The notes beneath the pieces are model-generated. The model did not search any database, had not been told where the DNA came from, and saw only the letters and a program-made list of their open reading frames with translations. Below are positions 1 to 60,832 of a stretch of 64,000 nucleotides of DNA, piece by piece. Every line of letters starts with the position of its first letter. Positions within the stretch are counted from its first letter, which is position 1. The translations under genes were made by a program, and so were the position numbers. This DNA comes from Gari tellinella (taxonomy: Eukaryota; Mollusca; Bivalvia; Cardiida; Psammobiidae): the NCBI GenBank assembly GCA_922989275.2, contig OV277861.1:23032479-23096478 (forward strand), in the 5' to 3' direction.

Positions 1-1013
1 TTCCATAGTTGGCTGTCGCAAGATTACGGAAATTATCGAGCACAATGATCATCCTATTTTCAGTTTAAGAATGTTCAAATCTAAAGATTAATCGGATGAG
101 GATCCAAAATGTTTGCAAATGCATCTTTTGGCGACATTGACATTGAAAGGGTTTTATAGGTCATATATTTAGTTTGACCGGTTAAGCTGACGACAGTTTC
201 AAAGCAGACGATATAACAACAGTAGATGGGTTTATTTTCATACCACGTGTTGCATTCGGAAAGGTGTAAAATAGTCCCATCAAGTTCCAACTATATTCAC
301 TTCCTGGTTCATTATGCAAGTATAGTAAAGGCGATAACCCCTTATCGTGCTAAATTGTCGTCTGCTTTAAATGTATCGTCTTCGACAAAATATAAAAACT
401 AGTTTAAATGTTTTTTTTATCTGAAGAAATTTTGAAAATGAGTGACAAACAGTTGAGATCCAGATCAGACGCCGCGTTACGCGGCGTCTGATCTGGATCT
501 AAACTGTTTGCATATGTTAGCCAAATCATGCTTAGCATAACAAGGGTAATTACTTTCCCTTCAATAGCCGACTAAATTCGACTTGATAGATGGTTGTTCC
601 AGACCAGACGCTACACAATGCGGCGTCTGACCAGGATTCAAACTGTATGGCAATCAATCCAATAGTCCTTCAGTAAAGGACAAAAGTTTAAATTTCTAAG
701 TGCAGACGACATATTTCAGAAGACGATATTGTGTATCGATATTATAATAACTCGACTGTGAAACGTCGGTTAACCTTAAGGGACGCTATTTAATTGTCGT
801 CTGGCAAAATATTTGGTCTGCAACAATTTACAAAGTTGACCTTATTAGAATTCATTTCTTTTCCTTGAATTGTATCAGTGTGTCCAATAATATTGACCAA
901 GATGAGACGCTGATTTTTTCGGCATTTCATCTTGATCCAAACTGCACGCAACGGTGATAATAAATCAACCGTATCATACAGAAGGATGAATACCGGCATA
1001 CTAGTATGCAAAT
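1..1013. other. gene-free left flank
   Basis: No convincing exon or long ORF is visible. The stretch holds two H1 hairpins (446-511 and a decayed one at 592-643) and fragments of the associated MITE sequence (for example the GCAGACGAC motif near 700-730). Confidence 0.6.
446..511. repeat. H1 hairpin module, GCGTTACGC tip
   Basis: Near-perfect inverted repeat. The left arm reads CAAACAGTTGAGATCCAGAT and the right arm is its complement ending AAACTGTTTG, with GACGCCGCG-TTA-CGCGGCGTC in the centre. No clear MITE termini are visible around it. Confidence 0.9.
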
Positions 1014-1463
1014 GTAAAACCTCTCTATTACCACCACTAAATTGTTTTAATCATTAGTTGTTTACGACAGGTGAATGCTTTTAAACAAGCTGACAGTAAA
1101 ACAGAAAGCTCCTTTAGGAGTTTTCTGTTTTATTGTTACCTTGGTTTAAGCTATCACCTGTCTTTCAAACAATCAGTTAGCTTTCTTTTCAGTGGTCTTA
1201 ACCCTTTCGCTCTCAATGACGCTTGAAAGCGCGTTTGCAAACAGTTTGGATCCTGATCAGACGCCGCGGTAACGCGGCGTCTGATCAGGATCCAAAATGT
1301 TTGACACTCGTATCGTTATGTTTTAAGTCATACTACATTGAATATTAATTTGAAACGATCTTGCTAACAACAAAATTGAAGCAGACGACAATGAAACGGT
1401 GAAGAGGTAAAAAAAAAACTTACGGAAATGTTGGTAGTGAAATGGTAAATAGAGAGGTTTTAC
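1014..1463. mobile_element. MITE family D (H2 core), split by a family B MITE
   Basis: The left end AAAACCTCTCTATTACCACC matches the right end reading GTAAT-AGAGAGGTTTTAC once the nested element at 1,198-1,449 is removed. The centre (about 1,086-1,160) is an H2-type hairpin with tip AGCTCCTTTAGGAG. Family D is seen complete at 23,491-23,696. Confidence 0.75.
1198..1449 (+). mobile_element. MITE family B (piggyBac-like, H1 core)
   Basis: Starts TTAACCCTTTCGCT and ends in a degraded GTGAAATGG-TAAA, matching the TTAA-CCCTTTC termini of other family B copies. An H1 hairpin fills 1,238-1,303. TTAA target sites with CCC.. termini are the hallmark of piggyBac-type transposons; no transposase is present, so the element is non-autonomous. 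Confidence 0.7.
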
Positions 1464-1683
1464 CTTTTATGGGAAATCAGCTTGCGGAACACTTCAATTG
1501 ACTTGTAAATAAGCCAGGGGTTGAAATAACATATTAGACGAAAATAATTGAAGAAAGGAGGGTTGTTCTGCACTTAGGTAAGATTTAAATCACAGTTTTC
1601 AGAACCTATTCCATAAGTGACACTCGCTGTAACAACATCAACGAAGAACTCAGTCATTTTGTGAACAGATCGATGGAACTTAA

Positions 1684-1704
1684 ATGAACACAAAATGGAA
1701 ATAG
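1684..1704 (+). promoter_or_regulatory. short upstream ORF overlapping the main start
   Basis: An ATG 11 bases before the main start opens a six-codon frame that ends in TAG, 7 bases past the first base of the main ATG. Such overlapping uORFs can lower translation of the main frame, but its use here depends on the real 5' end of the mRNA, which cannot be seen. Confidence 0.35.
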
Positions 1705-4010
1705 CATTAATTATTGCTTTATTATTCGTTGTTGCATCTGTAGAAGCAGATAGCGACGTGATACATGGAAATCCAGTGAATGACACGTGTATTCTATCTG
1801 TGTCTAACGATTCTCGAGCCGAGTTCACAGAAACTATTCTGCGGAGACACTACAATTTCATGTATATGAATCTCCACTTTGAGGACATAAATACTACTAT
1901 TAGCTCTAAGAAATATGTTATTTTGGCAACCCATTGGATCTGGACGTACAAGGGTGAGGATGGGGGTCATAATTACCTGTTTCTACCACAAGACTTCGGA
2001 TACCTCTCGTTTGGACTTCTTTGGTCCAAGTGCAATACTTCAGTATATACAATAAAGATTCAACACGACGGCAATTGTAGTGGATTGATGATTGGCGAAA
2101 ACAAAACTGATCTTCTAATTGGAGAGGCTCTTGGTGATATGACTAGCGATATTGCTGCAAGAAGAGACAGATACAATTCCAGTTACTGGTGCTACAGCAA
2201 GAGGATGTTGATACATCCATTAGGCTTATATCGTGCCTGTGAAAACTCTATCTGCACATTGCAAACGATTGAGTATATGTGTTGTAAATATGTCATTAGT
2301 TTTACGACAAGGAAACGACATATCGAATGCTCAAAGGAACATTATCATTTCACTGCTTTATGGTGGGCTCTGCCGATAGTTTTTGGAGAGATTTGCTTTG
2401 CTTTCTATCCCCTGTTTGTATCCAAAATCGGAATCTTGATTCAACGTCTAACTTGCGATAGAACTACCAGAAGACGACGAATGTCAAGCCAGGGTGACTA
2501 CAATGACGAGGAGCTCGACTACATACGTTTAAAACAAAGTCCTCCAGTTACTCTGCTGAATACGGTGCTGTCTCCGTTGTCCATGTTCTGCCATTCTAGA
2601 ACATCTGGGAGATCTAGGCTCTGGCGAATGTTGATACTTATATTGCCAATGACTTTCCCTGCTGTTAGGATATACATAGACTGGAAATACTCCAAGGATT
2701 TCATCACGGAAGCCCTTAAACAGGGGGTCGTTATTGGATTTAGCTCTCTGGTTGCTGGTCCTCATAATGCCGAAAGGTTCATGGTTTATTTTGGTGGACC
2801 AGTAATTGCGTTAATTATGTATGTCGTATTCGGAACGGTGTTCATTATGTTCCCAAAGGATCTTGAGAAACTGTTAGTCAATGGGTTGTTTAATCCACGG
2901 GGCTATCCGCCGCTCTTTATTCTCGCTTTTCCTATACGATGTCGCGAGAAACTGGGAAGAATTTCTGTTAGGAATTATAAAGGGTACAAACGATTTCATA
3001 ATTATCTAATTCTGAACATTCATATGATATTGAATCTGAAAACATGGCGCCATGCACTGCAAATATTTGCTAACAGATTTTCTGTAAATCTATGGTGGGC
3101 AGTTAAAAGGTTAGTTGTCAATGATTATGTGGTGACAATTGTCCTTGTAGTATTTTTCCCACTTTACTTTATTTTCTGTGTCGTTGAGCTTGTGTTTTCT
3201 CTGTTTTATTTCGCTTTCCCTGTTGTAAGTTGCTTCTACATCATTTTGAACGCTTACATGAAATCTCTCGTTTCTTTCTTTGGTAACTACAATTGTTTTC
3301 TTCTTTTCTTCAGCAAACTATTTCTTGCTGGTACGGTTGTAGCGTTTTCCATCACGTGGTATATGTACTGTGTTATCTTTTTTGATGGATTTTGGTTCTT
3401 GTCAAGAATTATCATGTTCACATTTACTGGTATTGTTCAATTCCCTAAACTTTCATACGGATACATTGTCCTCATTTTTATGGCTTTTTACTATCTCATG
3501 GACAGTCTCCGCACTTTCGGATCCAGTTATCGTGACCTGCTTCAACTCAGCATCGATGTATGTGAAAGGTTTAAGAACAAAAGTTCTGACGATTTTGCAA
3601 GAAATTTATCACGTAGAAACGCTATACCTCGCCATCTATTCAATGTTATTGTCGAGAGACATCAGCCTAAGAGGGTCAAGGTCTGCTATACAGTGTTGAA
3701 AGTAGTTTCTGTTGTGTCAATTCTGTGGGTATCTATCAGGTTGTTAATAACGTTTGATAAGTTTCAAGACCTTTCCCTTGTGTCACACGTGTTTACCGTG
3801 CTGTTCATTTGCGCTCTTCCTAAAATCTTGAACGATTTGTGCTTGAGAAGTGTGAGACATACGAACAAGAAACGCCTCCGTCAACGAATATATCGTACGG
3901 TATCTGACTATTGCATGAGCCATGGAGAAGTTGACAGCGACAGTGATTTGGAAGATATGGGCTCTACTTCTATGACAGGTTATGAAACGTTAGATATTGA
4001 ATCAGATTGA
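1695..4010 (+). CDS. multi-pass membrane protein of unknown function, 771 aa
   Basis: Intact single-exon frame. Residues 1-18 form a signal peptide (MEIALIIALLFVVASVEA). Residues 19-215 are probably extracellular: Cys-rich, with about seven N-glycosylation sequons (around N29, N38, N66, N114, N127, N136, N161). Hydrophobic segments lie near 220-247, 311-328, 363-387, 477-520 (two passes), 536-602 (two or three passes), 664-688 and 693-712. An Arg-rich cytosolic-looking stretch sits at 251-263 and a Ser/Asp/Glu-rich tail at 746-771. The start ATG has a good context (AAAATGG). I do not recognise the family and see no catalytic motif; a receptor- or transporter-like role would be a guess. The CDS is free of insertions although repeats crowd both sides, and a decayed copy of its 3' end follows at 4,377-4,500. 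Confidence 0.85.
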   Translation: MEIALIIALLFVVASVEADSDVIHGNPVNDTCILSVSNDSRAEFTETILRRHYNFMYMNLHFEDINTTISSKKYVILATHWIWTYKGEDGGHNYLFLPQDFGYLSFGLLWSKCNTSVYTIKIQHDGNCSGLMIGENKTDLLIGEALGDMTSDIAARRDRYNSSYWCYSKRMLIHPLGLYRACENSICTLQTIEYMCCKYVISFTTRKRHIECSKEHYHFTALWWALPIVFGEICFAFYPLFVSKIGILIQRLTCDRTTRRRRMSSQGDYNDEELDYIRLKQSPPVTLLNTVLSPLSMFCHSRTSGRSRLWRMLILILPMTFPAVRIYIDWKYSKDFITEALKQGVVIGFSSLVAGPHNAERFMVYFGGPVIALIMYVVFGTVFIMFPKDLEKLLVNGLFNPRGYPPLFILAFPIRCREKLGRISVRNYKGYKRFHNYLILNIHMILNLKTWRHALQIFANRFSVNLWWAVKRLVVNDYVVTIVLVVFFPLYFIFCVVELVFSLFYFAFPVVSCFYIILNAYMKSLVSFFGNYNCFLLFFSKLFLAGTVVAFSITWYMYCVIFFDGFWFLSRIIMFTFTGIVQFPKLSYGYIVLIFMAFYYLMDSLRTFGSSYRDLLQLSIDVCERFKNKSSDDFARNLSRRNAIPRHLFNVIVERHQPKRVKVCYTVLKVVSVVSILWVSIRLLITFDKFQDLSLVSHVFTVLFICALPKILNDLCLRSVRHTNKKRLRQRIYRTVSDYCMSHGEVDSDSDLEDMGSTSMTGYETLDIESD

Positions 4011-4500: not shown

Positions 4501-5484
4501 GGTGCATATATTATTTAGGTGTTACTTAACGAAGGACTGTGTTTATTGTCGCACTTTGTAGCAGGATAAATTGTAGGAAAATGCATCAGATTATATGGAC
4601 GATTGTGCTGATCAATGCGAAGAAATTTTGTTAGAAGAAATCATCAATATCGCAAATAGAACAATTATAACATATCAGCTGATTACACTAACAGTTTTAC
4701 GTATTGTATCACGATTATTACTGGCCGTTTAATAGGCATATCTAAATGCGGGAACGACAGGATTTTTCCCAATTAATTGCGGTTTTTTTTAATGCTTTAA
4801 ACGTTTATAGAATTGCAAACAGTTTTGAGCCAGATCAGAAAACGGATAATGCGGCGTTTGATCTAGCTCCAAAGGAACCAACACTTGGAATAGAAAAATA
4901 TCGTCAACAAATTTGAGCGGAACCACAAGTGATAGCTGCATATCTCCCAGCCGCTTCACCGAGCACACATTTTTTTTAGGTCTCCATGGCTGCCATTTCT
5001 CCGGATTTTTCCGAAAGCTTCGGATTTTTTTCTAGTACATGGTAGCTTAAAGCAGGCTGAAAGTTAAGTAGAATGCACCTTCAGGTGCATTCTGCTTTAC
5101 TTCCAGCCTGCTTTCAGCAACCACATGTCAACAAAACTAGAAACAGGCGATAGGGTAAAGGTACGATTCGGAAAATCGCACTTGAAAAATCCAAATTTGG
5201 AAATCTTAGGAATGTTTCATGTAAACTTAAGGCAGCCCTGGGTCTCGTGCTCGTATGGTTTCTAAACCATAACATTAGACAGATTTCTGATCATATTTAA
5301 AATAAAAATGAGCTTTTAGAAACAATGAATTCCGCGTATATCACAGTTTTGTGTAATAATTTAAAGGTTTTTAACTCCAACAGAAAACTGCTTCGAAAGG
5401 TGTGTTTGCGTCTTTAATCATTGAAAGCTTGCTTGATCACAATTAACATAAACTTGCTCTCATTGATCAAAACAATCATCACTC
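4501..5484. other. gene-free stretch with hairpin relics
   Basis: Contains a decayed H1 hairpin (4,816-4,872) and a family C / H2 hairpin (about 5,045-5,120, tip GCACCTTCAGGTGC). No exon seen. Confidence 0.5.
5035..5157. mobile_element. MITE family C relic (H2 core)
   Basis: AAAGCAGGCTGAAAG..GCACC-TTCA-GGTGC..CTTCCAGCCTGCTTT is a near-perfect hairpin, followed by the family C right-side sequence AACTAGAAACAGGCGAT and GGGTAAAGG. The left terminus is lost. Confidence 0.7.
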
Positions 5485-7470: not shown

Positions 7471-8562
7471 GTCAATATTTATTAGTAACTGTATGTAGCT
7501 ATCTAAAGTTTTGTACAAGTTGCTCCCCTTGAAATGAAAAAAATCGTAGATTTTGATTTTAATATAATATTTTTCCATATTTCAGCTTAAATTCGCCATT
7601 TATACGCTTTATTTGATTAGATATTAAGGAATTAAAGTAGTTTGGGTTGTTTTTAAGTGGTTTAGGCAGGTTCGGAGAGGTTTGGAGTGGTTTGCGAAGG
7701 TTTGGTGTCTGTAGACGGACTGTTCTCTTAAGACAATAGTGTCATCTGCTTTTGACAACTGTTTTCTCTTTTTTGTTCTCAATTTTGAATTTATATGTTT
7801 CGGGTAAATTCATACCGTTATGAATGTGAAACAATTTGGACCCCGATCCCACACCGCCTTTAGAGCATAACTATTTGCAAAAACATGTAACTATTGTACT
7901 CGGAGTAAGGCCGAAAGGGGTTTAGCCTAATTGTTTATCATTTTCATTACAAATTTTGCTAATGAAATAAACAAGTTATAAGACAATGACTCATGCGGAA
8001 TCCGGAAAGGGCCAGTCGAATTATTATTTCTTTAACGTGAATTTTCTAGATATTTCGGCACTATCGGGGGTCCGTAGATTCATGTATATGTGTAACTGTA
8101 TAACAAGGCACTGTCTTGTTTTGATCGGTCTTGACTATAAACGGTTTACATAACTCGTTTACCTCAATATTTGATAAGGCAATAAACGAATGATAAGGTA
8201 ATGTAATAATGCTTATCTGTAATATTCGTATTATATATGTATATATGTAAATAGATAGTGTTCTGAATACAAGGAAAAAAATAATTCACAAAAAGCTGTT
8301 GAATGTGTTGAATCAATTGAGCCCTTTAAGGAGCCCTTAAATTATGGTCTGTACTGTTTGTCGTTTTGCAATATTTTTTGTGTTTTCTGTATGACTTGAT
8401 TACTAAAATAAAAGCCTATCTAACCAGTGTTATTTCGTCTTATTGCATGAAACACTTAACGAAAGTAGTAGTAATAAAGGGAGACAATCGATAATGCTAT
8501 TTATACGCCAATTTCAATAGTTATCTTCCTTTACCCTATTAACCACAACATTGCCGTTCGAG
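7471..8562. other. gene-free AT-rich stretch
   Basis: No exon, RNA gene or clear element seen. A short frame at 7,390-7,578 overlaps the H2 hairpin and is not coding. Confidence 0.5.
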
Positions 8563-8777
8563 ATACAGTACTCCCTCCCCACAACGCCCCTCCCAACATC
8601 GACTCCCTCCTAACAACGACCCTTGCCGCTGTTCCCAAAACAAGACATTTATGTACAACCTTTTCATATTGCCTTAAATCGAACTTTGAAACGATATTGC
8701 AGACAACACTATTGAAGCAGACGACACTATGACGGTGAAGGGGTAAAAACCTCTCGACTAATTTGATCATGAAAGGG
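8563..8777. mobile_element. chimeric MITE: family E left half joined to family B right half
   Basis: Begins CAGTACTCCCTCCCCACAAC (family E type) and, after AACAAGACATTTATG, continues in family B sequence (CGAACTTTGAAACGATATTGC..GGTGAAGGGGTAAAAA..ATGAAAGGGTTGAG). The H1 hairpin is absent. The join falls where the hairpin sits in complete copies. Confidence 0.55.
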
Positions 8778-9039: not shown

Positions 9040-9237
9040 ATTAGATGTTTACGACAGATGACTACTTCAAGCAAGATGACAGAAAACCAGAAAGCTCCTT
9101 CAGGAGCTTTCTGTTTTACTGTCACCGTGCTTAAGGATATTTATGTTTGACTGTCATCGTGCTTTAAACTGTCAGCTGTATTTTATATAATCAATAATTG
9201 TCCTTTGTTTTCGTGGTCGTAATAGAGAGGTTTTTCT
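9040..9237. mobile_element. MITE family D copy (H2 core)
   Basis: H2-type hairpin AAGCAAGATGACAG..CAGAAAGCTCC-TTCA-GGAGCTTTCTG..CTGTCACCGTGCTT. The right end GTGGTCGTAATAGAGAGG matches family D; the left end is degraded. Confidence 0.7.
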
Positions 9238-9304: not shown

Positions 9305-9572
9305 TACAGCGCTCCCTCTCTACTACGACACCCAATGGGAGACAAAACTTGTTTGCGTTGTTCGGAGGGAGTCGTTATAGGCAGGGAAATTGATTTACAT
9401 TTGCAAACAGCTTGAATCCAGATTCAAGCTGTGAATCCAGATTCAAGCTGTGTGTCACTCGTCATTACGTTTTTTTCTGTCAAAATGTCCATTATGTAAT
9501 ATTTAGAAAAAAACAGCAGACGACAAATTTTAGCAGACGACATTGCAGCCGTGAATAGGTTGGACATAATGA
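9305..9572. mobile_element. MITE family E copy, hairpin partly deleted
   Basis: CAGCGCTCCCTCTCTACTAC and CACCCAATGGGAGAC at the left, AGGGAGTCGTTATAGG, then a collapsed H1 core in which GAATCCAGATTCAAGCTGTG is repeated, and GCAGACGACATTGCAGCC on the right. Confidence 0.65.
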
Positions 9573-9616: not shown

Positions 9617-9682
9617 AGCAGACAATGTAGATCTGATGAGACGCCGCGTGACGCGGTGTCTCCTCAGGGTCTACCTATTTGC
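9617..9682. repeat. H1 variant hairpin (GTAGATC arms)
   Basis: AATGTAGATCTGATGAGACGCCGCG-TGA-CGCGGTGTCTCCTCAGG; the outer arms read GTAGAYC rather than GTTTGGATC. The same outer arm is seen at 11,930, 15,534, 19,094 and 43,071. Confidence 0.8.
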
Positions 9683-9822: not shown

Positions 9823-10070
9823 TTTACCCTTTCATTATCAAATTATTCGGGAGATTTTTACCCCTTCACCGCTTTATTCTCGTCTGCTTCAATATTGTTG
9901 TCTGCAAGACGCGTTTCAAAGTTAGATTTAAGGTTGATTGACTTAATAAATATCGATTGGATTGTCAAACAGTTTGGTTCCTGATCAGACGCCGCGTAAC
10001 GCGGCGCCTGATCAGGACCCAAACTGTTTGCAAACGCGCTTTAAGGAGTTATTAGGAGTGAAAGGGTTAA
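9823..10070. mobile_element. MITE family B copy (piggyBac-like, H1 core)
   Basis: Runs from TTTACCCTTTCATTATC to GTGAAAGGGTTAA. A perfect-looking H1 hairpin lies at 9,967-10,031 with tip GCGTAACGC. In-element sequence CGTCTGCTTCAATATTG is shared with the other B copies in either orientation. Confidence 0.8.
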
Positions 10071-11412: not shown

Positions 11413-11929
11413 TTTTTCAGACAGGTAGCCAACTCGCAATCGATGGTCAATGACGACCATCGATTTCCTTGCTGAACTCATGGCTGTTGTATACGGTTTA
11501 TTATTTTGCAATAAACTGAAAATAATAACTCTAAGTAGTAAGACATGGAATTGACATTGTATTGGAAAGTAGAATTGTCCACTTCAAGTTTATGGGGCGA
11601 ATGATATAATTCAGAACAAAAGTAATGCAAAAAGTTCCATAACGAGTTGAGGTTTTTATTTCTTTAGGTCTATCACCTGTCTAAGAAAACAGAAATGTTG
11701 CATATTTTGAGAAACGCAAACAAAAGGGTACTGTACAAACAAGGTTGGCATGCAATAAAACAATTACCGATGGCCTATGTCATGACAAAATCTGCCTTAT
11801 TTCATCGCAACATTGTAAAGACCAAATACATTTGTCACCCTATGCTCTGTATGGGAGTTTGGTCTATAATGCCAAATACCGTATATAATACAGCTACATA
11901 AGAATGCTTTAGATGCAAGTGGGTGTCCA

Positions 11930-11996
11930 ACAGTGTAGATCAAGACCAGCAGCCGCGTCTTTGACGCGGCGACTGGCCTTGATATACACTATTTGC
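11930..11996. repeat. H1 variant hairpin, CAGCCGCGTC tip
   Basis: GTGTAGATCAAGACCAGCAGCCGCGTC-TTT-GACGCGGCGACTGGCC..TACACTATTTGC. The central stem differs in sequence from standard H1 but is fully self-complementary. Confidence 0.75.
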
Positions 11997-15533: not shown

Positions 15534-15602
15534 GCAAACAGTGTATACCCTTATCAGACTGCTCCTGAGGGAGCAGTCTGATCAGGGTCTACACTGTTTG
15601 CT
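15534..15602. repeat. H1 variant hairpin with CTCCT..AGGGAG tip
   Basis: Outer arms CAAACAGTGTATACCCTTAT and AGGGTCTACACTGTTTG; the apical stem CAGACTGCTCC-TGA-GGGAGCAGTCTG replaces the usual GACGCCGCG stem. It lies just beyond the last exon of the minus-strand gene. Confidence 0.85.
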
Positions 15603-16630: not shown

Positions 16631-16658
16631 ACCAGAGATATTGTTACAATAAGTTTAA

Positions 16659-16850
16659 CCCTTTCACTGCCAAATTTAACCGTCAAATGGCCCTTCCACC
16701 GACAACCTGTCGTTTGGTGATATGTTTCGTCTGCAATATTTTCGACAAATAATTTTTTTAAAAGTTTGATTGAAGAAATATTGATACAAGTGTCAAACAG
16801 TTCAGATACTGATCAGACATCGCGTCTGATCTGGATTCAAGCTGTTTGTA
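16659..16850. mobile_element. MITE family B relic with short H1 hairpin
   Basis: TTTAACCCTTTCACTGCCAA at the left. The H1 hairpin at 16,794-16,850 has a shortened tip (CAGACATCGCGTCTG). The right terminus is absent, replaced by the family E fragment that follows. Confidence 0.6.
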
Positions 16851-16852
16851 AA

Positions 16853-16936
16853 TGTCCCACCCTATAACGACTCCCTCCGAACAACGCACATATTTGTTGT
16901 CTCCCGTTGGGTGTCGTTTTAGAGAGGGGTCGCTGT
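16853..16936. mobile_element. MITE family E right-end fragment
   Basis: CGACTCCCTCCGAACAACGC, TCCCGTTGGGTGTCG and TTTAGAGAGGGGTCGCTGTA match the terminal part of family E. It directly abuts the H1 hairpin of the preceding relic. Confidence 0.6.
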
Positions 16937-17004: not shown

Positions 17005-17250
17005 CAGTGGAGAATCTGTTATTCTTTCCCGTTTAAACGCAAACGTACGCAAACGCAAAGCACTAAAACGTAGAAAAGTACAAATTTTGGAAAATTCCGA
17101 TAATTCTTGTTTATCTTGGTGGCAAACAGTTTGGAGCCTGATCAGACGCCGGGTTACCCGGCGTCTGATCTGGCTCCAAACTGTTTGCACTGAAAATAAT
17201 AGTTTTAGCGTAAACGCGTTTATTGGGAAAGAATAACAGATTCTCCACTG
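17005..17250 (+). mobile_element. MITE family A, complete 246-bp copy
   Basis: TIRs CAGTGGAGAATCTGTTATTC and its exact complement, flanked by TA on both sides (17,003-17,004 and 17,251-17,252). H1 hairpin 17,125-17,189 with tip GGGTTACCC. The copy at 42,005-42,250 has the same length and differs at roughly 4% of positions. Confidence 0.95.
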
Positions 17251-19013: not shown

Positions 19014-19272
19014 GCATTCAACCCTAGCGACGAGAATACTCGTCATAAGCAGACAGTTTACTATTGAAGAGGACACTTGTCCTATATAGATGCAGACAAT
19101 GTAGACGCTGATCACTAGTGATCAGAGGGCTCCTACAGGAGCCCTCTGATCAAGGTCTACACTGTTTGTCATTAGGCAATATATTGTGAAAATCAACCCA
19201 TATTAGTCAAAATGGACTAGACTTAATTGGAAACTTGAATTGTCCATTAAAAGCTTCAGGGGTGAATGTGTT
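19014..19272. mobile_element. MITE-like unit with H1 variant and CTCC tip
   Basis: Imperfect ends CATTCAACCCTAGC and CAGGGGTGAATG. The core at 19,094-19,169 is a long hairpin: outer arms GTAGACGCTGATCA and TGATCAAGGTCTAC, and apical stem CAGAGGGCTCC-TAC-AGGAGCCCTCTG. An extra ACTAGT palindrome sits inside the left arm. Confidence 0.6.
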
Positions 19273-19878: not shown

Positions 19879-20237
19879 CAGTGATCCCTCTCTACAAAAT
19901 CCCTTCCAACAACGACTACCTCCTTAAATTACAACGACCCGTGTCGCAGTTCCCTTATCAAGACAATACTTTCATTGCTGAAATAATCGTATGCTTAAAA
20001 TTGTCGTCTGCTGTTTTCTCAAAGTTACATATAAGTGGACATTTTGATATAATAAATATAATGACGAGTAAATAACAGCTTGAATCCAGATCAGACGCCG
20101 CGTAACGCGGTGGCTGACCTGGATTCAAGCAGTTTGCAATTTTAAGCCAAGTCTTAATCTCCCTCCTATAACGACTCCCACCGAACAACACACAATACAT
20201 GTCTCCCATGGGGTGTCGTTGCAGAGAAAGAACACTG
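19879..20237. mobile_element. MITE family E, complete 359-bp copy
   Basis: CAGTGATCCCTCTCTACAAA and the complement of CAGTGTTCTTTCTCTGC at the right, with TA at the left flank. H1 hairpin at 20,072-20,137 (GCTTGAATCCAGATCAGACG arms). Confidence 0.8.
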
Positions 20238-23490: not shown

Positions 23491-23696
23491 CAGTATAACC
23501 CCTCTATTACCACAACTAAAAAGAATGCTATTTGATTGTATAGAAAGACAAGTGACAGCTTTAAGCAAGGTGAGAGTAAATCAGAAAGCTCCTAAAAGAG
23601 CTTTCTGTTTTACTGTCACTTTGCTTTAAGCAATCATCTGCATTAAACACTTAATAATGAACACAATTTAGTGGTCGTAATAGAGAGGTTTTACTG
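23491..23696 (+). mobile_element. MITE family D, complete 206-bp copy (H2 core)
   Basis: TIRs CAGTATAACCCCTCTATTAC and the complement of CAGTAAAACCTCTCTATTAC, flanked by TA. The hairpin at about 23,560-23,633 carries AAGCAAGGTGAGAG arms and an AGCTCC-TAAA-AGAGCT tip. Confidence 0.9.
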
Positions 23697-27440: not shown

Positions 27441-28434
27441 GCTCGCCACCGGCACCTTTAGAAACTTAAAAGCACACTCAAGGTCACAGAGGTCAACCTT
27501 TTTGCCTGCATGGAAAGGTCTTGTCCATATACACTGGCAAATCAAATACGAAAATAACACCTCAAGGGACATAGGAATTATAAGCATTTTTGAAACCTAA
27601 ACGCAGATTTCGAAACCTAAAACCTTTCGCGACCTTAGTTCAAGGTCAAGGACACTGGGCTAATTTTTTTGCATGCATGGAAAGATCGTGTCCATATACA
27701 CATGCATGCCAAATATGAAAGAAATATCTCAATGGATATATGAGTTAAAGAAATTTTGAGAAACCTAAACGCAGACTTTGAAACCTAAACGCGGGTCCTT
27801 AGTTCAAGTTCAAGGTCAGAGGGCTCAAACATTTTGCATGCAAGGAAAGATGTTGTCCATATACACATGCAAACTGAATATGAAAGGAATATTTCAATGG
27901 ACATAGGAGAAATAAAAAAATTGAAAAAACCAAAACACAGATTTCGAAAAAAAAAGTCAAGGTCACAGGGGTCTAAATTTTGCAGTGCCTGGAAAGGTCT
28001 TGTCCATATACACACAAAAACCAAATATGAAAGCAATACCTCAAGGGACATTGAAGTAAAAGACATTTTTCAAAACCTAAACACAAGCCCTAAGTTGAAG
28101 GTCACAAGGATTTTCGAAACTTAAACGCAGATTTCGAAACCTAAACACAGGCTCTTAGTTCAAGGTCAAGGTCACAGGGGTCTAAATGTTTCTGTGCATC
28201 GAAAGGTCATGTCCATATACACATACATACAAACTATGAAAGCAATACCTCAAAGGACATAGAAGTTAAAGGCATTTTTCTAAACCTAAGCACAGGCCCT
28301 AACTTCAAGGTCAAGGTCACAGGGGTCTAAATTTTTCTGTGCATGTAAAGGTCTTGTCCATATACACATACATACCAACTATGAAAGCAATACCTCAAGG
28401 GACATAGAAGTTAAAGGCATTTTTCGAAACCTAA

Positions 28435-29930: not shown

Positions 29931-30199
29931 GTCTAAATTTTTCTGTGCATGTAAAGGTCTTGTCCATATACACATACATACCAACTATGAAAGCAATACC
30001 TCAAGGGACATAGAAGTTAAAGGCATTTTTCGAAACCTAAATGCAGATTTCGAAACCTAAACGCAGGCCCTAAGTTCAAGGTCACAGGAGTCTAAATTTT
30101 TCTGTGCATGGAAAGGTCTTGTCCATATACACACACATACCAACTATGGAAGCAATACCTCAAGGGAAATAGAAGTTAAAGGCATTTTTCGAAACTTAA

Positions 30200-31695: not shown

Positions 31696-31892
31696 GTCAA
31701 AATTTTTCTGTGCATGGAAAGGTCTTGTCCATATACACACACATACCAACTATGAAAGCAATACCTCAAGGGACATAGAAGTTATAGACATTTTCTTAAA
31801 ATTGTTTACGCCGTTCACGACGACGCCGACGACGACGACGACTACACCGGAGTTTATTGCAATAGCTCGTCATGTACTACGTACAGGCGAGC

Positions 31893-32514: not shown

Positions 32515-33440
32515 TGCTACAAGGTAAACCGTTATTCTTTCTCAACAGGCGAGTTGGTGATTAGCTGGATGGGGCGCAGCGATGACAGTTAGAATCCAGA
32601 TCATACGCCGTGCAACTCGGCGTCTGATCAAGCTTCAAACTGTTTAACTCTGGGTAATTGTCGCAGTTTTATTGCAATACGTTTGCATTTCGTTCCGTTT
32701 GAACGAGAGAGAATAACGTTTTCGACACTGTTCCATGTTGTTGTAACTATGCATTCTGTAAATGCATAACAATATTACATGTATTAACTGTGTTAAATTG
32801 AATCATGATGTTTCAATGAATACCTTATCATTGATATGTACACTGAAGAGTTCTCAGTTTTGTTGCAGGGGAAATAACTATCCTTTCCTAAAAAGCGACT
32901 TGGTGGTCCGTTTGATGGCGCACCATATAGCCAGTTTGGAACAAGTTCAGACGCCGAGTAAGTCGGCGTCTTAGCAGGCGCCAAACTGTCATACACTCGT
33001 TGAAGCGAATCACCGACGTTAGCGGTAAAATGTGACCTTCGCAGGTTTATCGCAGTGAGTTTGCCATTCGTTTCGTTTGGACGGGAAATATAATAACCTT
33101 TATGAACATTGTTCCATATTGCGGGCATTCTTTAAACGTATAATTAGATTACAACGGTGTTCGACTGATTCATGATGTTTCAATGATTACCTTATCCATT
33201 ACATGTTTGTTTATAGCCGGATAATTCGTTATCCCTTGCAAAAGAACGAGTTTATAATTTGTTTGATGGTGCCCAGCGAATTCAGTTTGGGTCCAGATCA
33301 CACACCGAGTAACTCGGTATCTGACCAAGCTCTAAACTGTCAGTCACTCGTTGAAGCGAATCGCCAACGTTTGCGATTAACTGCAATTTCCGCCACTGTA
33401 CCATGTTTTGTTAACTACATATTCGTTAAATGTATATAAA
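32515..33440 (+). repeat. three degenerate tandem units built on a family A MITE
   Basis: Each unit holds a diverged family A MITE (H1 hairpins at about 32,586, 32,934 and 33,283; right ends ..GTTTTCGACACTG, ..CTTTATGAACATTG, ..TTTCCGCCACTG) plus a shared tail (GTTCCATGTTGTTGTAACTA; TCATGATGTTTCAATGAWTACCTTATC). Spacing about 350-375 bp. Confidence 0.7.
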
Positions 33441-33599: not shown

Positions 33600-33838
33600 G
33601 AAGCGACTTTTAGCGTATCTAATAATTATATTCTTTCGCTGAAGAAAATAGTTCGAGTTTATATCCTCGTAAACAATTACCATAACAAATATTCTTATAT
33701 AGCCTAGCAGATGGTAGTTTAAAGTAGGCTGAAAGTAAAGCAGGATGTGCCTTAAGGCACATTCTGCTTTACTTTCAACCTGCTTCAAGTGATCACCTAT
33801 ATTGAATGTTATATACGGATTATTGGGTAAAATGTTAA
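33598..33838. mobile_element. MITE family C copy (H2 core)
   Basis: GAAGCGACTTTTAGCGTATC to TATTGGGTAAAATGTTAA. H2 hairpin at 33,722-33,787 with tip GTGCC-TTAA-GGCAC. The CCCTTTCCCC terminus is replaced by the microsatellite. Confidence 0.75.
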
Positions 33839-35792: not shown

Positions 35793-36187
35793 ACAGCGCT
35801 CTCTCTTTACAAAAACACCCAATGGGAGACAAGGATTGTGTTTGTTGTTCGTAAAGAGGTGTAGTTGGGAGGAAAAATCAATACGCTTAGAGTGCTGAGC
35901 ATGAATTGGCTTACATTTGCAAACAGTTTGAACCCAGATCAGACACCGCGTAACGCGGCGTCTGATCTGGGTTCAAATTGTTTGTCATTCGTCTTTATGT
36001 TTCTTCCGTCTAAATGTCCAAAATACGTAACTTTGAGAAAAACAGCAATCAACAGTTTTAATCTGACGATATTGCAGCAGAGAAAGCGTTAGACATACAT
36101 GTAGTTGTTTTGTTGGGGCGAATAGCGGCAAGTATTGTTGTAAGGAGGGACTCGTTGTTCGGAGGGCCGTTGTAGGGAGGGAACAAT
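35793..36187. mobile_element. MITE family E copy (H1 core)
   Basis: CAGCGCTCTCTCTTTACAAA to GGGCCGTTGTAGGGAGGGAA. H1 at 35,919-35,984 with arms AACCCAGATCAGACACCGCG and CGCGGCGTCTGATCTGGGTT. Confidence 0.75.
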
Positions 36188-37170
36188 ACTACCAATAGCT
36201 GGAATATATATGTATATTCAAGGGGCTAACAATGTTTACAGTTAACGGACGCGTTATAGAAGTGTTCATGTAAAGATACAATTAAGCTCGCTTATAACTA
36301 AATTTGATATAACGAATTATTGGATATAATGAAACAAATCTTATACCCCAATCTCTTATTAACGTATATATAGTAAAATGGACCTGATATCACGAAATTT
36401 GGATATAACGAAATAATTTAAATGGTCTCGACGACTTCGTTATTTATGATTGATACGTACTGTAAATGGTTTTCATCGGGGCCTCGTCTCAATTATTTCT
36501 CAGGAATGCATATAGTGTATAGTTGGTTGCCTGAAATATTGTCACGTGCCGAGCGGTAATACACGTCATGTTTGGGGTCTGATCTGGATCCAATTTGGTA
36601 GCGTGATTCAGGATCACCCCTTTTTTCTTTTTCTCTCTCTCTCTTTCTCTATTAAATATTAACTAAAATGGACTCTCTTTCGTGCGGCAAATAAAGTAAA
36701 AGTAAGGCGTAATCAAATTTTACGTGATGCTTTATTTATATCCTATTCAATAATAAAAACTTCAAGTCACTAGACTTCTTCTATTTCTAAATAATTCTAT
36801 TCTAAAAAATAAGGCAATAAGGTACCTCACCTTTGAAATTCTATTCCGAGAGTCCTCGCTTCGTCTGCAAGCGAGCTATTTATGCAGAAAGCACGGCCAT
36901 GTGGTGTGCACCAAATTTCTGGTGCGCGCACCAGAATCTTGGTGCGATTTTACATTAAAATCGCACCAAAAATCTCTGTTGCACATAAATCGCACCAAAG
37001 TGTGCACTCCTTGTATGGTGTGCGAAGACACTGGCCCTTCGGGCGTTTACAAAACTTACTCCCTGCGAAGCTAATGTAGTCATACCGTCATGAACGTCAA
37101 AAAGATGTTGTTTATTCCTTATTAAACTTCCATAAACCTTTTCCATGGCTTTTAACTGAAAATACAATTC
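36188..37170. other. gene-free stretch
   Basis: Includes GATATAACGAAT-type repeats (36,305-36,415), a TC microsatellite (36,630-36,655) and a block of GGTGCG/CGCACC inverted words at 36,900-37,030 (TTGGTGCGATTTTACAT..AAAATCGCACCAA is a small hairpin). Confidence 0.45.
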
Positions 37171-37389: not shown

Positions 37390-37738
37390 CATCGCTCCCT
37401 CTCTAAAACGACACCCAACGGGAGACAATAAATATGTGCGTTATTCAGAGGGAGTCGTTATAGGTAGGGAACTTTGTTAACATTTGCAAACAGCTCGAAT
37501 CCAGATCAGACACCGCGCTATACGCGGCGTCTGATCTGCTTTTAAGCTGTTTGTCATTTGTCATTATGTTTTTTTCTGTCAAAATGTCATTTATGTAAGA
37601 AAAAAAGCAGAAAACAATTTTAGGTAGAAAATGATGCATCAGTGCAAGCATAAATCTTAATTTTCGTGGGAACAACGGTGAATGTCGTTGTAAGGAGGGA
37701 GTCGTTGTGGGGAGGGCCGTTGTAGGGAGGGCTCACTG
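37390..37738. mobile_element. MITE family E copy (H1 core)
   Basis: CATCGCTCCCTCTCTAAAAC to GTTGTAGGGAGGGCTCACTG with TA at both flanks. H1 at 37,484-37,553. It ends 47 bases before the protease exon. Confidence 0.8.
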
Positions 37739-39422: not shown

Positions 39423-39863
39423 TTAACCCTTACCATGCTAAGCGGGACTTAGCTAGCATTTGCAAACAGCTTGGATCAGGATCAGATTCCGCGCCACACG
39501 GCGTTCGATCTAGGTCCAAGCTGTTTTCGACTCATAGTTAACTTTTCTTCATCTTACAGTGGAGAAAACGTTATTCTTTCCCAATAAACGCGTTTACGCT
39601 TAAACTATTATTTCCATTGCAAACAGTTTGGAGCCAGATCAGACGCCCTGTCAACCGGCGTCTGATGAGGCTCCAAACTGTTTGTCTCCACCATAAACAT
39701 GAATAATCAGAATTGTCCAAAAATTGCACTTTTCTACGTTTTAGTGTTTTGCGTTTGCGTTTCGTTTCGTTTAAACGGGAAAGAATAACAGATTCTCCAC
39801 TGTAAAAACAACAACATTAAAACTAGCTTGAAGAAGATGGCAATTCAGCATGATAAGGGTTAA
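39423..39863. mobile_element. TTAA-type MITE (CCCTTAYCATGCT ends) containing a family A MITE
   Basis: TTAACCCTTACCATGCT and the complement of TTAACCCTTATCATGCT. It has its own H1 hairpin at 39,463-39,526 (arms CAGCTTGGATCAGGATCAGA and GATCTAGGTCCAAGCTG), then a complete family A MITE at 39,557-39,802 as a secondary insert. Confidence 0.8.
39557..39802 (-). mobile_element. MITE family A, complete copy nested in a TTAA MITE
   Basis: CAGTGGAGAAAACGTTATTC to AACAGATTCTCCACTG with TA at both flanks. H1 at 39,620-39,684 with GCCCTGTCAACCGGC tip. Confidence 0.9.
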
Positions 39864-42004: not shown

Positions 42005-42250
42005 CAGTGGAGAATCTGTTATTCTTTCCCGTTTAAACGCAAACGTACGCAAACGCAAAACACTAAAACGTAGAAAAGTACAACATTTTGACAATTCTGA
42101 TAATTCATGTTTATCTTGGTGGCAAACAGTTTGGAGCCTGGTCAGACGCCGGGTTACCCGGCGTCTGATCTGGCTCCAAACTGTTTGCACTGCAAATAAT
42201 AGTTTTAGCGTAAACGCGTTTATTGGGAAAGAATATTAGATTCTCCACTG
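42005..42250 (+). mobile_element. MITE family A, complete 246-bp copy
   Basis: Same length and structure as the copy at 17,005, flanked by TA. H1 at 42,124-42,188 with tip GGGTTACCC. The right TIR carries ATATTAG in place of ATAACAG. Confidence 0.95.
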
Positions 42251-42416: not shown

Positions 42417-42669
42417 TTAACCCTTTCCCCAATAGAAGCGCCTTTTAGCGGATATGATTTATTCATCCGCTGAAGAAAATAGTTCCAATTTAATCAGCAA
42501 TGAATATGTATTATAGGGAATATTTTTCTATATTATAGCACATGATAGCTTAAAGCAGGCTGAAAGTAAAGCAGAATGCGCCCTAAGGCGCATTCTGCTT
42601 TACTTTCAACCTGCTTTAAGTAGTCACCTATCTTAAGTACTAGAAATAGGCCATCAGGTAAAGGGTTAA
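42417..42669 (+). mobile_element. MITE family C, complete 253-bp reference copy (H2 core)
   Basis: TTAA at both ends; CCCTTTCCCCAATAGAAGCG at the left, ATCAGGTAAAGGG at the right. The H2 hairpin 42,552-42,620 is almost perfect: TTAAAGCAGGCTGAAAGTAA, AGCAGAATGCGCC-CTAA-GGCGCATTCTGCT and the matching right arm. Confidence 0.9.
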
Positions 42670-42707: not shown

Positions 42708-42886
42708 CACCCTTTGCTCTCAATGACGTTATAAAGCGCACTGCAAACAGTTTTGAAATTACGTCAGTTATACTGCCTTAAATCTTACTTTGAAACGATA
42801 TTGCAGACAACAATATTGAAGCAGACGACAATAAAACGGTGAAGGGGTAAAAATCTCACGATTAATTTAGCAGCTGTAAAGAGTAA
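42708..42886. mobile_element. MITE family B copy without hairpin
   Basis: ACCCTTTGCTCTCAATGACG to GTGAAGGGGTAAAAATCTCA. Only CAAACAGTTTTG of H1 is left. Confidence 0.65.
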
Positions 42887-43070
42887 ACCAATTTATAAAT
42901 AAATGGGTTAAGCACGCCGTTAAAAGGAAAGTTCACTGCAATATAAATTTAGATATTAATATATTGCAATCAACATTCCCGGTATACTTTGAAGAAATAT
43001 TAAATTCAAAGGTGATATATATTCACTACAGTGTCTGTACATTAAGCAGAACATAGAATATCAAATAGCA

Positions 43071-43133
43071 AACAGTGTAGACCCTGATGAGACGTCGCAA
43101 AACGCGGTGTCTCATCAGGGTTTAAACTGTTTG
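43071..43133. repeat. H1 variant hairpin (GTGTAGACC arms)
   Basis: CAAACAGTGTAGACCCTGAT, GAGACGTCGC-AAAA-CGCGGTGTCTC, and the right arm ATCAGGGTTTAAACTGTTTG. Confidence 0.85.
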
Positions 43134-43275
43134 CCAATGTCCACTTTAGTAGACACTAGGCTTAAATTAGTTAAATGTACTATACTATGACTTGTTAATG
43201 TAACGTATCCTAGATCCTAGAGTAAAATGAATCCATTTCAGAAACCAATGACCACTTAAGTTACGGCACTGTTTT

Positions 43276-43470
43276 GGTCTGCCCATTCACTGCCAACTTT
43301 TTCATAAGATTTTTCATTGTCGTCTGCTTCAATTTTGTAGTCTGCAAGACACGTTTCAAAGTTATATTTAAGGTTGTATGACTTAATTAATATCGATAAG
43401 AGTGTCAAACAGTTTGGGTCAAACTGCTTGCAAACGCGCTTTAAGGCCTCATTTAGAGTGAAAGAGTTAA
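43276..43470. mobile_element. MITE family B copy with collapsed H1
   Basis: CCCATTCACTGCCAACTTTT to GAGTGAAAGAGTTAA. The hairpin is reduced to CAAACAGTTTGGGT-CAAACTGCTTG, only the outermost arms joined directly. Confidence 0.7.
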
Positions 43471-43838: not shown

Positions 43839-44086
43839 TTAAGACGTTCACTGTCAAAAACGTCAAAAGACACGTTGTGCAAACAGTTTGTATCCTGATC
43901 AGACGCCGCGTTACGCGGCGTCTGATCAGGATCCGAACTGTGTGACACTCGTTTCCAATTGTCGTCCGTCATAGTACTTATAATAAAAGTTCGAAACGAT
44001 ATTGCAGACAAAAATATTGAAGCAGGCGACAACATGGCGGTGAAGGGGTAACAATTTCTCGACAAATTTGACAATGAAAGGGTTAA
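43839..44086 (+). mobile_element. MITE family B copy (H1 core)
   Basis: TTTAAGACGTTCACTGTCAA to GACAATGAAAGGGTTAA. H1 at 43,878-43,942 with tip GCGTTACGC. Confidence 0.75.
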
Positions 44087-52775: not shown

Positions 52776-52936
52776 CAGGGCATTATATCTCGTTGCAGTT
52801 AAAGATAAGGAAACGAAAGCGGATCTTCCACCTGTGCCTGTTATAACATCCCTTAAAAATATATCGTTGATAAGACCAAGAACACCAAGAACGTGAAAAC
52901 ATAGATCTTCATTGGCCTTGAAAATTAATTTTATAC

Positions 52937-55640
52937 CCTCATACTACCTACTCCTAACACTAACACTACCTACTCCAAACAATACTCTACCTATCCCTAA
53001 TACTACCACTCCCTACCCCTAATACTACCACTACCTACTTCTAACACTACTCTACCTACCCCTAATACTACCTACTCCTAACACTACTCTACCTACTCTA
53101 ATACAACCACTCCCTACCCCTAATACTACCACTCCCTACCCCTAATACTACCACTACCTACTCCTAACACTACTCTACCTCCCCCTAATACTACCTACTC
53201 CTAACACTACTCTACCTACCCTAATACAACCACTCCCTATCCCTAATACAACCACTCCCTACCCCTAATACTACCACTACCTACTCCTAACACTACTCTA
53301 CCTACCCCTAATACTACCTACTCCTAACACTACTCTACATACCACTAACTACTCCTAACACTACTCTACCTACCCTAATAGTACCACTACCTAATCCTAA
53401 CACTATTCCTAATACTACCACTACCTACTCCTAACACTACCACTATCTACTCCTAACACTACTCCGAACACTACTACTACCTACTCCTAAAACTACTCCT
53501 AACACTGCCACTACCTACTCCTAACACTACTCCTAATACTACCACTACCTATTCCTAACACTACTCCTAATACTACCAACTCCTAACACTACTTCTAATA
53601 ATACCACTACCTACTCCTATTACTGCCACTACCTACTCCTTACACTACTCCTAACACTACTTACTCCTAACACTACTCCTAATACTACCGCTACCTACTC
53701 CTAATACTACCACTACCTACTCCTTACACTACTCATAACACTGCCACTACCTACTCCTTACACTACTCCTAACACTACTTACTCCTAACACTATTCCTAA
53801 TACTACAACTACCTAGTCCTAATAGATACGATAGACTCAAGCAGGAAACGCAACACAAACAATACACCCACCTCTCAAGCAGGACACACACACAGTCATA
53901 CCATAACAAACACACACACACGCGCGCAATCCCATTCCTTCATCTACACGCTAAATAGAAAACAACACGCAAGACAAACATTAAGCAAAGTGAATATAGG
54001 AGCCCGCCTTAGTACGGTCAGCAGCAACCAATAATTAATTATAAATAAATTATTAACAACCACTGGGGGTTAAACCTGGGTTTAGGGGCGCCATACCTCT
54101 AACACTACTCTACCTACCACTACCACTACCTACTCCTAACACTACTCTACCTACCACTACCTATTCCTAACACTACTACTAATACTACCAACTCCTAACA
54201 CTACTTCTAATACTACCACTACCTAATCCTAATACTACCACTACCTACCCCTACCACTACCTACTCCTAACACTACTCTACCTACCCCTACCACTACCTA
54301 CTCCTAACACGACTCTACCTACCCCTACCACTACCTATTCCTAACGCTACTCCTAATACTACCAACTCCTAACACTACTTCTAATAATACCACTACCTAT
54401 TCCTAACACTACCACTACCTACTCCTAACACTACTCATAACAGTACCACTACCTAATCCTTACACTACTCCTAACACTACTTACTCCTAACACTACTCCT
54501 AATACTACCACTACCTACTCATAACACTACCAACTCCTAAACCTACTTCTAATACTACCACTACCTACTCCTAATACTACCACTACCTACTCCTAACACT
54601 ACCACTACCTTCTCCTTACACTACTCCTAACACTACTTACTCCTAACACTACTCTTAATATTACCACTACCTACTCCTAACACTGCTCTACCTATCCCTA
54701 CAACTACCTACTCCTAACACTGCTCTACCTACCCCTACCACTACCTACTCCTAACACTACTCTACATACCCCTACCACTACCTACTCCTAAAACTACTCT
54801 AACTACCCTAATATAACCACTACCTACTCCTAACACTACCACTACCTACTCCTAACACTACCACTACCTACTCCTAACACTACCACCTCCTAACACTACC
54901 ACTACCTACTCCTAACACTACCACTACCTACTCCTAACACTACCTACTCCTCCCTACCACTATCAACACCTAATACTACTCTACCTACCCTAATATTACT
55001 ACTACCTACTCCTAACACTACCACTACCTACTCCTAACACTACCACTACCTCCTCCTAACACTACCCCTACCTACTCCTAATACTACCACTACCTACTCC
55101 TAACACTACTCTACCTACCCTAATATTACCACTACCTAATCCTAACACTACCACTACCACTTCCTACTCCTAACACTACTCTACCTACCCCTAATACTAC
55201 CGCTACATTACTCCTTACATTACCACTCCCTACCCCTAACTTAACCACTACCGACTGCTAACACTACCGACTGCTAACACTACCACTACGTACTCTACCC
55301 TAATACTACCTACTAACACTACTCTACATACCCCTAATACTATCACTACCTATTCTTAACAACCACTACCTACCCCTAATACTACCACTACCTATTCCTC
55401 GCACTACCACTACCTATTACTAGCACTACCAATACCTACCCATTACACTACTCTACCTACCCCTAATATTACCACTACCTACTCCTAATACTACCACTAC
55501 CTACTCCTAACACTGTCACTACCTACTCCTAACACTAATATGTCTACCCCTTATCTTAGCACTCTACTATATATGTACTTTTTCTACTTCTAACACTAAA
55601 GCTAGATAACTTCTACTACAACAACAACTACTACTACTAC
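52937..55640 (+). repeat. 2.7-kb array of CTAC/CTAA-type repeats, almost free of G
   Basis: Variants of CCTACTCCTAACACTACCA with CTACC and CCTAATACTACCACTAC fill the interval; G is nearly absent on the + strand outside 53,820-54,098. The complementary strand is rich in GTAGTG, TTAGGAGTAGG and TTAGGGGTAGG. The unit length is variable (16-32 bp) with local higher-order order. Confidence 0.95.
53820..54098. mobile_element. non-repetitive insert inside the array
   Basis: Breaks the array with GATACGATAGACTCAAGCAG..ACACACACACACGCGCGC..GAGCCCGCCTTAGTACGGTC..CCACTGGGGGTTAAACCTGG. No TIR seen; it may be a decayed SINE-like insert, but boxes are not convincing. Confidence 0.45.
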
Positions 55641-56119: not shown

Positions 56120-56235
56120 TTAATCCCTTCACTGCCTTACCCCGAGTACGATAGATCTAGTTATTTGCACACCGTGTTGTTCCTGACCAGACGCCGCGTA
56201 ACTCGGTATTTGATCAGGTTCCAAACTATTTGCAA
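56120..56235. mobile_element. MITE family B left part with worn H1
   Basis: TTTAATCCCTTCACTGCCTT, then a decayed hairpin CTGACCAGACGCCGCG-TAA-CTCGGTATTTGATCAGG. Confidence 0.6.
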
Positions 56236-56569
56236 CCAAGATGAAAATGTGGCGTAAGAAAAAACAAAAACGTATTTCTACATTTTGTTGCATTTCGTTT
56301 GCGTTCTGCACTCATCTCAATAATTCAGGCCCAAATACATGTACCTAAAACAAAATCTACATTTGATAAATGAAACCAGACTTCGCGTATCGCTGCTTCT
56401 AATAATGGTCTACTATTTGTCCATGTCCTGCTATGTTTAAAATATACTAAATGCATTTGCAAGACCCAGTGGTCTACCCAGAATTCCAAGAAGATTGGTT
56501 CATGTTTTTGTTACTAATATGATCCACAAGGTAACTTATAACCCGCAAAGGTACTTAGTGTTGAAAGAG

Positions 56570-56795
56570 TTAACCCATTCGCTGCCTTACCCCGAGTCCG
56601 ATGGTTATTTGCAATCAGTTTGAATTCTGATCAGACGCCGCGTTACGCGGCGTCTGATCAGGATCCAAACTGTTTGACACTCATTTCAATATTTCTTAAA
56701 TCAAAATACATGTAGAACCTAAAAATTAAATTTCAAAAATAAAAGCAGACGAAAATCGTTTAAAATTGATGACGTCACGGCAGTGAAGGGTTTAA
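56570..56795. mobile_element. MITE family B copy (H1 core)
   Basis: TTAACCCATTCGCTGCCTTA to GGCAGTGAAGGGTTTAA. H1 at 56,612-56,675 with tip GCGTTACGC. Confidence 0.8.
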
Positions 56796-57730: not shown

Positions 57731-57739
57731 ATAAGACTG

Positions 57740-60374: not shown

Positions 60375-60599
60375 CAGTGCAACTGTGACGAGTACACTTT
60401 TCCTATGCAAACATTGCAGATCTAGAGCCAGGTCGGAGAGCTCCTTTAAGATATTCACTGTTTGTAATTTTGCAATATATTAACAAAAATAACCCTTACT
60501 ATTCATAAATAGACTAAATTAAATTGGAAACTGTAACTGTACATTCAGGAAGATTAGAAAAACGTTTTTCCCTGTTTTATTGAATTGAGTTTTAGTTTC

Positions 60600-60641
60600 G
60601 GTCGTATTTAAATAGGAGAATAATAACGTATTCTCCACTGT
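60600..60641. mobile_element. solo right end of MITE family A
   Basis: CGTATTTAAATAGGAGAATAATAACGTATTCTCCACTG; the left part and H1 are missing. Confidence 0.6.
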
Positions 60642-60657
60642 ACATGATTTGTCTGCA

Positions 60658-60832
60658 TTTTAAACCATTCAATGCCTTACCCAGAGTACAAAAGTAACGC
60701 GGCGTCTGATCAGGATCCAAACTGTTTGACACTCCTTTTGTTATTTCTGTAGTCAAATTACCTTTGAAACTAAAAAGTAAAAGCAGACGACAATTATTTA
60801 AAATTGATGACGTCATTGTGGTGAAGGGGTAA
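60658..60832. mobile_element. MITE family B copy with only the right arm of H1
   Basis: TTTTAAACCATTCAATGCCT to GTGGTGAAGGGGTAAAG. ACGCGGCGTCTGATCAGGAT at 60,692-60,711 lacks its partner arm. Confidence 0.7.

Follow-up and report, generated by a model that had tools for sequence, protein, structure and literature searches.

Three described systems come close to the elements reported here. The passages of PMC2872659 on CMITE and CMITE-IN of the coral Acropora describe short TTAA-type MITEs whose insides are better conserved between families than their ends. CMITE-IN is a new element that arose from a CMITE inserted at a TTAA inside another element, and the same passages call the origin of the conserved core a mystery. 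In mammals, MER6 is a Tc1/mariner-type (TA) MITE that carries a nested element, a SINE, and has spread as a composite; PMC6887750, which describes it, mentions no hairpin. Finally, the stem-loop models of MITE amplification (Izsvak et al.; Hikosaka and Kawahara), as summarized in PMC8268682, assign a role in copying and rearrangement to palindromes or inverted repeats that lie within MITEs. As set out there, the models explain tandem repeats and copying, but not a hairpin that is common to families with different ends. How new MITE families arise, and why the inside and the ends of an element can differ in history, is an open problem.

The 64-kb stretch of Gari tellinella DNA analysed here (the window) holds one core in a TTAA element and in a probable composite, together with a candidate empty site and two mosaics that are broken at a hairpin. 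As in the coral elements, the insides are more alike between families than the ends: a hairpin and a body are common and the ends differ. The proposed origin of one of the clam families (family E) is like that of CMITE-IN (PMC2872659), except that its host element has TA sites, and the passenger would be a TTAA-type MITE where that of MER6 (PMC6887750) is a SINE. The clam core also differs from the coral core as described in PMC2872659 in that it holds a 67-bp palindrome and occurs in TA-type elements as well. No homology was detected between the printed 60-bp coral core and the window (best score 22, shuffle mean 24.7, 39 of 40 shuffles as high).

The hairpin, H1, is a near-perfect palindrome of 67 bp, with two 32-nt arms (GCAAACAGTTTGGAKCCWGATCAGACGCCGSG and its complement) and a 3-nt loop. 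A profile made from 21 clear copies was used to search the whole window and gave 54 non-overlapping stretches at E<=1, of which 41 had E<1e-3 and 36 were at least 51 bp long. When 20 first-order Markov shuffles of the window were searched at equal database size, there were no matches below E=1e-3. This confirms the many-copy hairpin of about 65 bp proposed in a first-pass annotation of the sequence. Folded as single-stranded DNA, six H1 hairpins gave -28 to -40 kcal/mol, whereas their shuffles averaged about -7 to -8 kcal/mol, and each of the six folded better than every one of its 200 shuffles.

Literature searches by topic and by arm sequence gave no report of H1, and Rfam gave no match at the gathering score. 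Residues 36-90 of the translation of a B element, which span the hairpin, found nothing in a protein search, and phages searched with positions 1200-1400 of the window gave no match. In bacterial contigs the H1 apex pattern had six matches with arms unlike H1 beyond the pattern, and these were taken as ordinary terminator-like hairpins. Viral contigs had no matches for the apex pattern and none for the long arm pattern. A 16-base half-arm pattern gave 59 viral stretches, but the best E-value of the H1 profile over 65 fetched loci was 0.018, which was taken as chance.

In families B, C and F the ends are CCCTT-like and the target duplication is TTAA, as in piggyBac-type elements. TTAA is present at both ends of the elements at 39423 (C), 56570 (F), 25736 and 43839 (both B), and at one end only of the B elements at 1198 and 9823; the latter has TTAA at 10,067 and TTTA at 9,823. 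The CC[C/T]T end motif of piggyBac-type elements (PMC2872659) is found as CCCTT at B 1198, B 25736, B 9823, C 39423 and C 445, and there are two departures, F 56570 (CCCATT) and B 43839 (GACGTT). In family B, H1 lies at 1237-1304 (plus strand; TTAA at 1198), at 9965-10031 (minus strand; element at about 9823-10070) and at 43879-43944 (plus strand; TTAA at 43839 and 44083). The F-type element occupies 56570-56795 (plus strand, H1 at 56611-56677). It had been listed with that at 43,839 as family B; TTAA is present in both, and the left end of the 56,570 element, here called F, is unlike that of B. The C-type (CCCTTACCATGCT) TTAA element at 39423-39863 (plus strand) has H1 at 39462-39528. A second C-type hairpin at 445-511 (minus strand) lies in an element with decayed ends, neither of which has an exact TTAA.

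Families A (CAGTGGAGAA ends) and E (CAGTGCTCCCTC-like ends) lie at TA sites and show the TA target duplication of Tc1/mariner-type elements. From these sites and their CAGTG-like ends we take both families to belong to the Tc1/mariner superfamily. Three of the eight family A elements inspected have TA on both sides: 17005-17250 (minus strand, H1 at 17122-17188), 39557-39802 (plus strand, H1 at 39619-39685) and 42005-42250 (minus strand, H1 at 42122-42188). All three have the CAGTGGAGAA ends that had been reported for them. The other five have TA on one side, and the outer end of one element, at 34132, was placed by eye. Three family E elements are at 19879-20237 (minus strand, H1 at 20073-20137), 35794-36189 (plus strand, H1 at 35919-35985) and 37390-37738 (plus strand, H1 at 37486-37554), again with the ends expected. 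The last of these has TA on both sides and the other two on one side only.

The element positions given in the first-pass annotation were right to within one base (35,794 replaces 35,793), and H1 is indeed carried by TA-site elements (A and E) as well as by TTAA-site elements (B, C and F). Because this hairpin is found in elements of both target types, at least two transposase types are implied, as the annotation had argued; we infer these types from target sites and end motifs. Two further points needed correction. The complete family A element at 39557-39802 is nested in the C-type element at 39,423, the TTAA of which was confirmed, so two of the examples overlap. Additionally, H1 had been described as central, which is roughly so in A only; in B, C and F it is near the left end.

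When the flanks were aligned in one orientation, B, C, E and F were found to have common sequence to the right of H1, in the order CACTCGTnTTnATATTTCTTnnGTCAAA, then TAACTTTGAAA, then two GCAGACGACAAT-like units. Examples of this body (CACTCGT...GTCAAA...TTTGAAA... and the two units) are at 1305-1434 in a B element and at 35986-36112 in an E element, both on the plus strand. In an anchored permutation of 100-nt right flanks, E (four copies) matched B/C/F (six copies) with z 8.7 and none of 300 permutations as high. With 55 nt, the first 5 nt being removed, z was 3.8 (0/300). The left flanks gave a weaker signal (40 nt, z 1.8, 14/300; 15 nt, z 3.1, 2/300). Consistent with this, a profile of seven B/C/F flanks alone detected three of the five unmixed E copies (9467, E=6.9e-9; 35986, E=4.5e-4; 20067, E=2.5e-3), the other two being absent at E<=0.5. 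Homology beyond the hairpin was what the annotation had named as evidence against unrelated carriers. The common body provides it for B, C, E and F, and the claim stands for A, in the flanks of which no homology could be demonstrated.

Family labels were given by eye from the flanks, ahead of the tests. When 43 copies were scored by flank, 23 could be assigned to families and 20 could not, the two mosaics being among the latter. The copy's own family scored highest on both sides in all 18 A, B and E copies, and the five C and F copies gave mixed results, mostly among the TTAA families. Some of these scores are raised because the 100-nt flanks extend beyond the element ends.

We think it somewhat more probable than the alternatives together that H1 is the heart of an old TTAA-type MITE core that has spread by change of ends, by nesting and by exchange centred on the hairpin. 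The core would be a piggyBac-like TTAA-type MITE made up of CATTT, the 67-bp hairpin, CACTCGT and a stretch of about 100 bp that holds two GCAGACGACAAT-like units. In the first route of spread, the core would have transposed and come to have different ends in B, C and F; the body that these families have in common is observed, and the order of events is our suggestion. There are two successive right ends in the B elements with hairpins at 1237, 9965, 25781 and 43879 and in the mosaic at 16794, the inner one (GGTGAAGGGGTAAA-like) lying about 35 bp in from the outer one (GTGAAAGGGTTAA-like). These B elements look as though a new right end was gained.

The second route, insertion of a whole element into a TA-type MITE, is well supported by family E. 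The inner left flank of the E element at 35794-36189 keeps a relic C-type end, which aligns with the left end of the C element at 445, including the CCCTT tip (TACGCTTAGAGTGCTGAGCATGAATTGGCTTACAT in E and TACCCTTGTTATGCTAAGCATGATTTGGCTAACAT in C). For this one E copy the alignment scored 38 where the null maximum was 29, so that none of 2000 shuffles reached it; with the second C element, too, the count was 0 of 2000. The relic is weaker on the right than on the left. Against the C element at 445, the numbers of shuffles as high out of 2000 were 0 for the E copy with its hairpin at 9403, 13 for that at 35919, 16 for that at 20073 and 1992 for that at 37486; no copy of the four stood out when the second C element was used. 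In the flank scoring, the left flank of the C element at 445 scored best with E (34), which fits a nested origin of E.

There is also a candidate empty site, E0, at 62772-62934 (minus strand). This 163-bp element matches the profiles of the E left half (E=2.3e-14) and right half (E=1.2e-6), the core is absent, and a TTAA (62852-62855) lies between the halves. Its left half scored above all 500 shuffles for five of five E copies and its right half for four of five; for the fifth (9403), 80 of 500 shuffles were as high. E0 may be the ancestral form or the product of an exact excision. The TTAA could be due to chance, as by a rough estimate one would be found within a few bases about 1 time in 10 in AT-rich DNA. 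Taken together, the data support well the view that E is a composite, in which a C-type TTAA MITE with H1 jumped into a TA-type MITE and the whole was then amplified. E most likely gained H1 within a complete TTAA-type MITE.

The third route would be exchange centred on the hairpin, for instance by template switching or ectopic conversion from the hairpin of one family to that of another. Its products would be two clear mosaics, which are present among the 43 copies scored by flank, and most likely the hairpin of family A. The mosaic at 16655-16935 (minus strand, hairpin at 16794) has an E left end and E-type left arm, a shortened apex, a B/F-type right arm and body and a B-type double right end, so that its two hairpin arms are of different subtype. 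Its left flank scored 126 with E and its right flank 42 and 34 with F and B against 25 with E (null maximum 29). The mosaic at 56121-56350 (plus strand, hairpin at 56167) has an F left end (score 46) and hairpin, followed by about 73 bp that match the right flank of family A (56235-56307; profile E=1.3e-7, A score 39) and an F-like body that resumes at 56309 (local score 36). This arrangement suggests that a short tract, starting and ending at the hairpin edge, was copied from an A element. Both mosaics would fit template switching or conversion between hairpins.

Since these two copies change family at the hairpin, we think that H1 is an exchange point between element families, and the proposal of the first-pass annotation that H1 is a recombining unit gains some support. 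Two mosaics in one window are a small number on which to base exchange. Moreover, the hairpin is the sole sequence common to A and F, so that a role of the hairpin in promoting exchange does not follow from a breakpoint at that place alone. We put forward only tentatively, as an idea that is more probably wrong than right, that H1 acts as a recombination hub: a perfect palindrome present in unrelated MITEs would permit them to exchange halves by template switching, the core would move between piggyBac-type and Tc1/mariner-type ends, and families would evolve by swapping ends. If this holds genome-wide, it would offer a testable way for elements to switch from one transposase to another; if not, a module common to MITE families would still be explicable largely by nesting. 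A further stretch, 8562-8766, has a reversed E-type right end (8562-8649) followed by a B-type body (8664-8766) at the expected place of the hairpin. It is a possible third mosaic, without a hairpin.

The main alternative is that all the carriers are one MITE family with diverged ends and bodies. The hairpin would then be the slowest-changing part, kept by selection (as a protein site or as an aid to transposition) or by templating of one arm on the other. We consider this unlikely on balance, though a serious contender. It draws on the body common to B, C, E and F and on the finding that hairpin identity exceeded flank identity in all 110 between-group pairs; part of this extra conservation is ascertainment, because the copies were found by their hairpins. 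Additionally, ACTC is found no more than 12 nt from the hairpin in three of nine A, three of three A2 and eight of 12 other copies, against 3.4% of window positions, and the H1 module may possibly extend weakly beyond the hairpin. The A flanks, however, are at the random level. Their identity to B/C/F was 0.59, that of E flanks 0.64 and that of random 100-mers 0.57 (sd 0.03). By eye, homology of the A flanks to the B/E body had seemed plausible, but the anchored permutation of A (nine copies) against all others (12) gave it no support, with nothing notable on the right (z 0.7, -0.8 and -0.0) or on the left (z 1.2 and 0.0). The hairpin of A is nevertheless about as close to B/C/F (identity 0.81) as that of E (0.79 to B, 0.82 to C and F together); identity between A and E is lower (0.76). 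Were A merely an older branch of the same family, its hairpin should be more diverged from B/C/F as well, and exchange of the hairpin would explain A better than descent from such a branch.

The stem itself gives mixed evidence on the one-family alternative. Stem cells with a compensating change on both sides numbered 46 against 22.0 in shuffles (0/500 as high) and the covariation score was likewise reached by none of 500, but kinship among the copies inflates both measures. Double-change stem pairs (10 against 8.0, 86/500) and pair types (36 against 32.3, 33/500) were not clearly above shuffles, and decay of CpG can yield matched changes in both arms. There is also one A-A stem mismatch common to all nine aligned A hairpins, which argues against frequent arm-to-arm repair. 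At this position a left arm of E type would not match a right arm of B type, as would suit an A family founded by a mosaic, although a single mutation would serve equally. Selection on the H1 palindrome, or its repair, is possible. In the favoured account, that of an old TTAA-type core, H1 would persist because these families have no other stretch of homology in common, and a perfect palindrome may also be favoured in amplifying elements.

At 32583-33343 there are three H1 hairpins (A2) exactly 348 bp apart in diverged units, resembling a tandem MITE array. The first and second have A-like right flanks by profile, and the third resembles the second by eye.

It is improbable that H1 is a small mobile unit that inserts by itself into many MITEs, the separate mobility that the annotation had also suggested. 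Such a unit would account for family A, which has only the hairpin (and perhaps CACTC) in common with other families. It would also suit a second type of H1-related hairpin (H3 type, with a GCAAACAGTGTAGACC-like outer arm), copies of which are at 9618-9681, 43068-43134, 11927-11996, 15534-15601 and 19118-19169. The flanks of the four that were scored (all except 19118) match none of A, B, C, E and F. The apex of these hairpins varies between copies and the two arms of each copy still largely match. A flipped hairpin was considered for H3-type copies and set aside because the pattern is too ambiguous. Against separate mobility, H1 subtype tracks family. Of the 36 stretches that reached 51 bp, 26 hairpins were picked and aligned, and a tree of 22 of them, which left out 6411, 43068 (H3 type), 56167 (mosaic) and 35686 (badly decayed), had three family-label changes against a shuffled mean of 9.4 (0/200 as low). 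A lies on one side of a branch with SH-aLRT 93; none of the 19 branches was starred as strongly supported.

Direct repeats of at least 4 nt at the hairpin edges were not in excess (they were present in 6 of 29 full-length copies and in 22% of random stretches), and E carries H1 along with about 100 bp of the common body. Finally, no clean difference in the hairpin alone was seen among the hairpin-less body copies examined closely, which instead keep scars with remnants of the arms: a collapsed H1 of 27 bp at 43405-43431 (minus strand) and a left-arm remnant at 42743-42756 (plus strand) in B-type elements, and a collapsed, partly duplicated H1 at 9403-9455 (plus strand) in an E element. There are also part-hairpins at 25781 and 60694. 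Subtype that follows family, the lack of edge duplications and the scars together suggest that H1 probably does not move separately.

Chance, or a general bias towards palindromes, can be given practically no weight: there are further long palindrome families in the window, but H1 copies agree in primary sequence as well as in shape and the shuffled windows gave none below the same cut-off. One of the further families (TTAAAGCAGGCTGAAAGTAAAGCAGAATGCGCC-like arms and their complement, unlike those of H1) is found at 5040-5123, 33719-33788, 42549-42620, 23553-23636, 1080-1149 and 9069-9132, and some of its members have an apex, GCTCCT..AGGAG, that resembles the apex of some H1-related hairpins.

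The window contains several other features. A reading frame of 772 residues at 1692-4007 has, among 21 matches, 40-45% identity to named proteins of Mercenaria, Ruditapes and Mactra and 25% to one of Mya. At 27478-31794 there is a tandem array in which the units (TTTCGAAACCTAAACGCAGGCCC...) measure about 145-167 bp, and at 52936-55537 a C-rich array, strongly GC-skewed, that is built of CCTAACACTACCACTACCTACT-like units.
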